Source: Halobacteriales archaeon QS_6_71_20
GTDB lineage: Archaea; Halobacteriota; Halobacteria; Halobacteriales; Haloferacaceae
Direction of reading: 5' to 3'
DNA length: 64,000 nt
Assembly (NCBI GenBank): GCA_003020945.1
Contig: PXRU01000003.1
Span: 1-64,000, forward strand
Every line of letters starts with the position of its first letter. Within the stretch, counting starts at the first letter, position 1. The position numbers were made by a program, and so were the translations under genes. Positions 45,626 to 59,612 of the stretch are shown one piece after another. Below the pieces are notes generated by a model. The model had not been told where the DNA came from and made no database searches. It saw only the letters and a program-made list of their open reading frames with translations.

Positions 45626-45738
45626 CGCGTGTCCGTGGGCGTCGGGGAGTGAAAAGGCGTTCGTGGCGACCACGGGGGAGCGATGTGGGTCGTGCCGCCA
45701 GCCCGGACGATATCGAAGTTTCCGACGGGTTACACCGC

Positions 45739-45854
45739 GAAAGCCCCTGTCGGTCCGCGGTCGGTGCGGGCGGCGCGCTCCTCGGTCGGTCGCTTCGCTC
45801 CCTCCCTGTGGTGCTCCCCGCTCCGCGCCGTCCCGCGGACCGACGGCCCCTTTC
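45739..45854 (-). repeat. Extragenic palindromic element, copy B (22-nt imperfect terminal inverted repeat)
   Basis: Left arm gaaagcccctgtcggtccgcgg (45739-45760), right arm ccgcggaccgacggcccctttc (45833-45854), complementary except near the cccc/gggg box. Confidence 0.8.
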
Positions 45855-45977
45855 GTTCCCGCCCCGTAGTCGGGCGGGTCCAGCGTCGCGGCCCTCCGCC
45901 CAGCGTGTACGACTGCGAGTCGCCGAAGCCGGAGCGCCGACCGGCGGTTCTTTGTCTCGGGGCACCGGAGCAGCGGT

Positions 45978-55884: not shown

Positions 55885-56547
55885 ATGTTCACCGGAATCG
55901 TGGAGACCGCCGGCGAGGTGGTCGGCCGCGAGGAGACGCCGGACGGACTGCGCCTCCGGGTCGCCGCCGACGGCCTCGACGACCTCCACCACGGGCAGTC
56001 GATCTCGGTCGGCGGGGTGTGTCTCACGGTCGAGGAGTTCGGCGGCGCCGGCGTCGAGGGCGGGGACGGGCGGGCCGACCGGCCGTGGTTCTCGGTGTTC
56101 CTTGCGGCCGAGACGGTCGCGAAGACGTATCTCGACGAGGTGCGCGAGGGCGACGCGGTCAACGTCGAGCGCGCGCTCGCGGCGGACGATCGCTTCGACG
56201 GCCACCTCGTACAGGGTCACGTCGACACTACCGCCGAGATCACTTGGATCGAGCGGGTCGGCGAGGACTGGCGGTTCACCTTCTCGGTGCCCGACGGCTT
56301 CGGGCGCTACGTCGTCGACAAGGGGTCGGTCGCGCTCGACGGCGTCTCCCTGACGGTCGCCGAGCGGCGCGAGGACGAGTTCGACGTGGCGGTCATCCCG
56401 ACCACCTACGACCTGACGACGCTCTCGGAGAAGGCGGTCGGCGACCCGGTCCACGTGGAGGTGGACGTGGTCGCGAAGTACGTCGAGACGATGCTGGAGG
56501 GGTACGCGGAGTCGCTGCTGGACGCGCCGGCGGCGGCGGACGACTGA
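55885..56547 (+). CDS. ribE: Riboflavin synthase (alpha-type)
   Basis: MFTGIVETAGEVV, GQSISVGGVCLTVEEF, GDAVNVERAL, GHLVQGHVDTTAEI, SVALDGVSLTV. Confidence 0.95.
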   Translation: MFTGIVETAGEVVGREETPDGLRLRVAADGLDDLHHGQSISVGGVCLTVEEFGGAGVEGGDGRADRPWFSVFLAAETVAKTYLDEVREGDAVNVERALAADDRFDGHLVQGHVDTTAEITWIERVGEDWRFTFSVPDGFGRYVVDKGSVALDGVSLTVAERREDEFDVAVIPTTYDLTTLSEKAVGDPVHVEVDVVAKYVETMLEGYAESLLDAPAAADD

Positions 56548-56695
56548 GCGGACGCCCTCCCGCGGTCGGCGCGTGCCGGCGGACCGCCGTGTCCGCCGGA
56601 CGCGCGCGAGGGACGAGCGAGGAACGAACGCAGTGAGTGACGAGTGAGTCGGCTGGGGAGGGTGTGGCTGCGGTGTCGTCGCTGTGGGTGGGACT

Positions 56696-56803
56696 GAAAG
56701 GGGCTGCCGCGCTCGTGAGGCGAGACGACGCAAGCACGCGAGGGAGCGTCGGCGACCGAGGGCGCGCAGCGAGTCGCAGCCCACGAGCGCGGCAGGGGCT
56801 TTC
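56696..56803 (+). repeat. Extragenic palindromic element, copy A (22-nt imperfect terminal inverted repeat)
   Basis: Left arm gaaaggggctgccgcgctcgtg (56696-56717), right arm cacgagcgcggcaggggctttc (56782-56803); 14-bp perfect inner pairing. Confidence 0.85.
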
Positions 56804-56880
56804 GTGGTCGCCCCGCCGACGGCAGTGACGCCGTCCGAAACGGAACGAGCGCCGTCGGTGTCCGTTCGCTCGGAGCAGTA

Positions 56881-56962
56881 CGCCAGGACAGGGATTTGAA
56901 CCCTGGATTCCATACGGAAACACGCTTTCCAGGCGTGCGCCTTACCACTCGGCCATCCTGGC
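56881..56962 (-). tRNA. tRNA-Ser (anticodon GGA)
   Basis: Reverse complement GCCAGGATGGCCGAGTGGTAAGGCGCACGCCTGGAAAGCGTG...GGTTCAAATCCCTGTCCTGGC-G: 7-bp acceptor stem, D arm, CTGGAAA anticodon loop, variable arm, T arm; no encoded CCA. Confidence 0.95.
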
Positions 56963-58948: not shown

Positions 58949-59224
58949 ATGGGGACGAGAACCATCGGACTCAGAGATGATGTGTATGAACGTCTGAAAG
59001 CCCGGAAAAGAGAGGATGAAAGCTTCACAGACCTCGTGAACCGCCTCTTGGACGAGGAACAAACCGATTGGCGTGAGCGATTCGGGACGCTTGACGCGGA
59101 AGCCGAAGAACTCGAACAAGCAATCGAAACAGCCCGTAAGCAGACGAGTGCGGGGCTTGCAAAACGCCAACGAGAGGCGATCGAAGAGCTACCCAATACC
59201 GAGGATGCCGATGAAACTACTTGA
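58949..59224 (+). CDS. vapB: VapB-type antitoxin (DUF217/UPF0330-like)
   Basis: MGTRTIGLRDDVYERLKARKREDESFTDLVNRLLDEE. Confidence 0.88.
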   Translation: MGTRTIGLRDDVYERLKARKREDESFTDLVNRLLDEEQTDWRERFGTLDAEAEELEQAIETARKQTSAGLAKRQREAIEELPNTEDADETT

Positions 59225-59612
59225 TACAACGTTTCTCATCCATTATTGGGCCGGGCGTCAGGGCGTGAAAGACTACCTCGAACGGAACGAAGAGTTCGAA
59301 CTGGTCACTACGACGTTCAATGTCAAGGAGATCGCTGTCGGGCGCGCCCTTCAAGGGAAATTCGACCGACACGAGATACTGGAAACGTTCGAATGGGTGA
59401 ACATTATCCCATTTCAGACCGAACACGCTTTCCTCGCCGGACAGGTCGAAGCAGAACTACACCGGGACGAAAGCGTAAATCAGGACAAAATAAACTCTCT
59501 TACTGGAGATGTGTTGATCGCCGCCGTCGCCAAGGAGACGGGGGCAACTGTTGTAACAGAGAATAAAGATGACTTCGAATTCCTCGATGGCGTGTCTGTG
59601 GAGACATACTAA
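59211..59612 (+). CDS. vapC: VapC-type PIN-domain toxin
   Basis: MKLLDTTFLIHYWAGRQG, TTTFNVKEIAVGRAL, GDVLIAAVAKETGATVVTENKDDFEFL; overlaps vapB by 14 nt. Confidence 0.9.
   Translation: MKLLDTTFLIHYWAGRQGVKDYLERNEEFELVTTTFNVKEIAVGRALQGKFDRHEILETFEWVNIIPFQTEHAFLAGQVEAELHRDESVNQDKINSLTGDVLIAAVAKETGATVVTENKDDFEFLDGVSVETY

Follow-up and report, generated by a model that had tools for sequence, protein, structure and literature searches.

Structured intergenic repeats of ~130-160 bp, such as the ERIC/IRU and bcr1-type elements, are known from bacteria, where each is confined to a single genus or family and their mobility is unclear. Integron attC sites are hairpins of variable sequence, of which one folded strand is recognised via few unpaired bases. 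C(GNA)G loops form unusually stable DNA mini-hairpins. REP elements are characterised, in the descriptions drawn on here, as bacterial palindromes of 20-40 bp whose foot bears an unpaired GTAG or CGTC tag (PMC3733652, PMC2817692). The haloarchaeon Haloquadratum walsbyi carries small transposase-free dispersed repeats termed PATE, MITE and SMR; according to the sections of that account concerning them, SMRs are ~110 bp long with inverted ends, are simple inverted repeats commonly >95% identical and target IS605 elements, and core deletions and inverted copies are reported (PMC3119063).

Here we describe a dispersed structured element of another kind, found in a window of 64,000 nucleotides of Halobacteriales archaeon QS_6_71_20 (contig PXRU01000003.1, positions 1 to 64,000). 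One full-length copy of ~245 bp occupies 56562..56806 on the plus strand. Its limits were set by a profile of 49 copies (nhmmer match 56561-56805, E 9.8e-54), by BLAST boundaries (similarity from ~56562 to ~56806) and by the related genus g13, in which the repeat ends are near-constant across species and delimit a unit of ~250 bp; a 201-bp query gave 13 matches in the own genome and extended leftward to ~56562. The element sits in the convergent gap between a gene at 55885-56547, which we take from its sequence to be riboflavin synthase and which has relatives in 39 of 40 genomes, and the minus-strand tRNA-Ser(GGA) at 56881-56962. An earlier note on this DNA had correctly placed its hairpin next to the 3' end of this tRNA, at a distance that is 77 bp and not 78. 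Further along the window, at 58949-59612 (+), two overlapping small ORFs resemble, by eye, a VapB-type antitoxin and a PIN-domain (VapC-type) toxin.

Read 5' to 3', the unit consists of hairpin H1, hairpin H2, the G-rich box CGGCTGGGGAGG, GGGTGGG and a long 3' hairpin. H1, or module 1 (GGCGCGTGCC GGCGGAC-CGCCGT-GTCCGCC GGACGCGCGCG; 56568..56608, plus strand), was recognised from aligned copies; its arms vary yet remain complementary across copies, and the hexaloop is similar to the consensus CTCCGT read from the alignment. The H2 region (56615..56649, plus strand) holds a small variable hairpin of the ACGAACGCAGTGAGT type with a GNA triloop, as seen in the sequence and in aligned copies, and is followed by a G-rich linker (56650..56695, plus strand) with the box CGGCTGGGGAGGG and GGGTGGGACT in conserved alignment columns. 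Module 2, the long hairpin (56696..56803, plus strand), comprises a foot, a GGG/GGG loop, the helix P1, inner helices and a variable tip, according to pair counts and to the match of covariance model R1 (56684-56803, 81.6 bits, E 1.7e-12). The earlier note had taken this hairpin of about 108 bp for the entire element and gave its letters and coordinates correctly, from 56696 (GAAAGGGGC TGCCGCGCTCGTG) to 56803 (CACGAGCGCGGCA GGGGCTTTC); it is indeed one rod-like hairpin, but only the 3' half of the larger unit (~56562 to ~56806). The perfect inner pairing reported there exists, over 13 bp rather than 14: the P1 5' arm at 56705..56717 pairs with the 3' arm at 56782..56794 (both plus strand), with both-side changes in all P1 pairs. 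The outer boxes, by contrast, had been called non-complementary, whereas GAAAG (56696-56700) does pair with CTTTC (56799-56803), with support from covariation; between the paired outer boxes of the foot only GGG/GGG remains as an internal loop. Further inside, the conserved boxes GCAAGCAC...GCGCAGCGAG (56730..56773, plus strand) flank the variable tip, with support from covarying pairs of helices 4 and 5. The 3' hairpin also exists alone, often as head-to-head inverted pairs. A second window copy, at 45739..45866 on the minus strand of a divergent intergenic gap, is module 2 without module 1 (R1, 62.7 bits, E 3.3e-9; nhmmer 45737-45865, E 2.6e-11).

The palindrome arms returned by a repeat search measure 31 nt and are 77% complementary, and on both strands the 108-bp hairpin folds far more stably than expected at random (RNA z-scores -4.8 and -5.3; 0/200 shuffles as good). 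A 30-pair structure was derived from 22 copies that belong to a single length class; we built R1 from this structure and re-aligned the 115 hits of the model. Among the 114 distinct copies, standard pairs fill 95.7% of cells, compared with 68.3% when the 3' letters were shuffled and only 34-46% when partners were slid by 1-3 columns; both-side changes occur in 28 of the 30 pairs (876 cells in total) and 0/500 shuffles match any observed value, figures that lean upward because the alignment is fitted to the structure and because related sequences can beat such shuffles. Despite this upward lean the same pattern is found in 160 less similar copies, where ungapped stem counts gave 69-96% Watson-Crick pairs per position, mostly with all four pair types. 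In the foot, a G-C replaces an A-U pair in 15/114 copies, and in g13 the foot types are CAAAG:CTTTG or CGAAG:CTTCG, with both sides in agreement in 63/63 copies. Covariation reaches the short inner helices (2-5 bp) between fixed loops, and unpaired boxes are kept across genera, the conservation of letters that served as search anchors being partly circular. The covariation of the element is very strong, beyond chance as in structured RNAs. Five variants (L093, L126, L169, L184, L205) keep the foot and P1 and carry an interior CCTAT...GGATAT in place of GCAAGCACC...GGAGCGCAGC; they possibly represent a second subfamily.

G.U is found in 113 cells and A.C in 25 (p 1.5e-14, with cells treated as independent); in the main stem alone the counts are 64 and 11. 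An excess of this size implies that the written strand is the one under selection, whether in the form of RNA or of single-stranded DNA; the strand that carries GGACTGAAAGGGGC is kept in one specific fold. Most apical loops are triloops, 71/123 being C-GNA-G, and none of the 123 examined is of the GNRA or UNCG type; the H1 loops are C-GNA-G in 18/46. The C-GNA-G loops favour DNA, though they are perhaps common filler hairpins of haloarchaeal intergenic DNA. Four G-tracts are kept in 178/204 copies, a count that is partly circular since part of the G-rich box served to find copies. Judged from these letters a G-quadruplex is possible, with which the foot pairing would have to coexist.

The covariance model detects 18 copies in the genome of the window and between 0 and 78 in each of 40 relatives. 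Of 394 haloarchaeal genomes, 169 carry an exact 21-base signature, and these represent 58 of 86 genera; forward and reverse copies are in balance, and a reversed control pattern has zero matches in the genomes of the class. It misses subfamilies: g13 genomes are nearly all zero by signature, yet the g13 genome G022 has 78 copies by model. The signature is present in 14 haloarchaeal plasmids, and searches for it returned no match in 242 genomes elsewhere in the phylum, in phage records or, as an exact pattern, in IMG/VR contigs. The proposal of the earlier note, a dispersed haloarchaeal repeat family, thus survived the computational checks, which found both further copies and covariation. The element matched no family of Rfam 15: for the window region and six related loci, the hits were limited to tRNA and to chance similarities. 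In the literature searched, the signature letters were unmatched and no description of such an element was found under related topics. One of the tRNA matches (RF00005; L372:329-413 in G022) lies near another copy of the element.

We judged orthology from flanks and found that gain, loss and decay of copies differ from one locus and one species to the next. At the window locus in g1, the genus to which the window belongs, the unit is complete in four genomes (G000, G006, G007, G010); in G002 and G003 module 1 persists while the 3' hairpin has decayed; in G005 module 1 is degraded and the hairpin is reduced to GGGTGGGGCTTTC; and in G009 the gap is 48 bp long and empty of the element. Copy number swings from 0 to 52 between sister species, and P1 can change wholesale between orthologous copies. 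One g13 locus carries the unit in 13 species with mostly intact boxes, while the flanking intergenic stretches align poorly. G007 and G010, which are ~95% identical, share most copies over stretches of 400 kb each; in these stretches no clean recent insertion, empty site or target duplication was found, and neither of two candidate presence/absence cases is a clean insertion. In one orthologous copy (L304 versus L324/L325; G007 ~611.7 kb, G010 ~627.5 kb) the part of the hairpin enclosed by the P1 arms is inverted. Foot types agree within a genome at 0.77 against 0.50 by chance (0/2000 shuffles), a value uncorrected for shared ancestry and dominated by G022. These observations suggest concerted evolution with gain and loss, rather than a fixed gene or simple debris. 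Two kinds of local repetition were seen besides. In the riboflavin synthase-tRNA-Ser gap of five genomes (L260, L261, L262, L265 and L266 in G007, G010, G002, G004 and G006), extra copies of the last ~20 bases of tRNA-Ser(GGA) stand in tandem next to the intact gene, each with its inverted counterpart after it (CAGGGATTTGAA...TTCAAATCCC); from their letters these tails resemble scars left by repeated integration, or hairpins derived from the tRNA. At seven g13 loci (L365, L368, L369, L370, L385, L392, L394) the 3' end of the element (GAGCGGCTGGGGCTTTGG plus ~40 bp) is tandemly repeated downstream, and at some of these loci every joint has a TTTATAA box.

With REP/BIME repeats the element shares intergenic position, many copies, hairpins, head-to-head dimers and a copy number that varies between related species. 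It differs in its size (unit ~250 bp, hairpin 108 bp), its several domains and conserved internal loops, its occurrence only in haloarchaea and the lack of any RAYT partner among the proteins searched. Its foot GAAAG:CTTTC, with flanking CT and G, contains neither GTAG nor CGTC, and the associated Y1 (RAYT) transposase of the GTAG class was not found; with neither tag nor Y1 partner, the element falls outside the REP super-families. The CGTC REPs, as far as the cited description goes, are likewise without a dedicated transposase (PMC3733652). The PATE, MITE and SMR repeats of H. walsbyi resemble it as small dispersed haloarchaeal repeats without transposase; in contrast to SMRs, copies of the present element are ~70-85% alike, covary structurally and occur class-wide. 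As for MITE features, the unit ends are by eye not mutual inverted repeats and no clean empty site revealed a target duplication. The likeness to ERIC/IRU and bcr1-type repeats, as structured intergenic repeats, is one of description, and we claim no sequence relation. With attC sites the element may share a way of working; unlike them, it is dispersed and not found in cassette arrays.

We tentatively prefer to regard the element as a non-autonomous dispersed intergenic repeat of haloarchaea, ~250 bp long, that works like REP/BIME-type repeats. Its folded single strand would arise either as ssDNA that replication exposes or as an RNA intermediate, and a putative trans-acting factor may bind it and spread or convert copies; contact would be made at the conserved foot, the GGG/GGG loop and the bases of the inner loops, with the variable stems contributing shape only. 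This explanation draws on the range of copy number (0-78 among relatives, 0 to 52 between sisters), on head-to-head inverted pairs as in BIMEs, on decayed, partial or absent orthologous copies, on strand-specific folding with DNA-type apical loops and on the agreement of foot types within genomes (0.77 vs 0.50). It draws also on genomic context, as read with a crude, home-made codon-usage gene finder: copies are intergenic, in both orientations and beside unrelated genes, and the gap classes of 162 copies (++ 50, -- 33, +- 28, -+ 51) broadly track total intergenic length in two 400-kb stretches. The same classes speak against a transcription terminator or untranslated-region element for neighbouring genes, which the strong hairpin and invariably intergenic position might recall and which we rank as the least probable explanation. 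Neighbour genes are not recurrent either: among 326 neighbour proteins no recurrent family was found beyond mostly orthologous loci, which, with the length-like gap classes, does not suggest a switch that controls any one set of genes; a role in regulating one class of genes was rejected on this ground. What counts against a dispersed repeat is that no transposase was found, that the presence of Y1 TnpA is unlinked to copy number and that clean recent insertions or target duplications were not seen. It is very improbable that the element is left over from an IS200/IS605-type transposon (PATE) or from a TnpB omega-RNA. Such remnants do occur in haloarchaea, as the cited part of the H. walsbyi account has it (PMC3119063), and subterminal hairpins would fit. 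At 30 TnpB and 30 Y1 loci, however, no shared ends were found; the full signature is present at 0/30 TnpB loci, L241 having two partial box matches only, and the TnpB/omega-RNA link was rejected. Only 1 of the 30 Y1 TnpA loci has a flanking copy and several high-copy genomes have no Y1 TnpA: PF01797 is absent in G022 (78 copies), G056, G015, G030 and G000, and has 10 matches in the zero-copy G014, so that an IS200/RAYT partner was also rejected.

Multi-copy structured non-coding RNA genes, all or some transcribed on the plus strand, whose RNA would act in trans, for instance by binding protein, and whose copy number would reflect duplication or dosage, are the main alternative, possible but doubtful. 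The internal-loop architecture is RNA-like, covariation extends down to helices of 2-5 bp, and G.U is tolerated where A.C is not. In g13 a TATA-like box stands just upstream of the unit in 23 of 62 copies, compared with 6 of 62 for a segment of the same length farther upstream, which favours transcription in that genus or insertion beside promoters; these boxes, with the element kept between diverged flanks at the 13-species locus, are more expected of a functional RNA gene than of a dispersed repeat. Against RNA genes, the 29 copies of other genera, window copy included, have no TATA-like box upstream, whole genomes of some relatives are without the family, GNRA and UNCG loops are absent and orthologous copies decay. 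A narrower version, a class-wide structured RNA family, selfish or regulatory, with a GGG-GGG-GGGG-GGGG core that could form a G-quadruplex in the molar-potassium cytoplasm and be bound by a putative host or parasite protein, seems unlikely. Functionless repeats held palindromic by mutation, through template switching between arms and gene conversion and without selection, would account for the orthologous copy with an inverted interior, for foot types homogenised within genomes and for P1 wholly changed between orthologous copies. Arm correction is strand-symmetric, however, and predicts no excess of G.U over A.C, and both the covariation of short inner helices between fixed loops and the unpaired boxes conserved across genera weigh against it; we consider it improbable.

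A previously uncatalogued structured element, very strongly covarying, thus occurs in no fewer than 58 of the 86 haloarchaeal genera sampled, at up to ~80 copies per genome. Were it mobile, archaea would have a REP/BIME-like system with a spreading enzyme yet to be found; were it transcribed, it would rank among the larger RNA families of haloarchaea. Whichever reading holds, the question of a partner protein can be put directly to the test in sister species with high and zero copy numbers.
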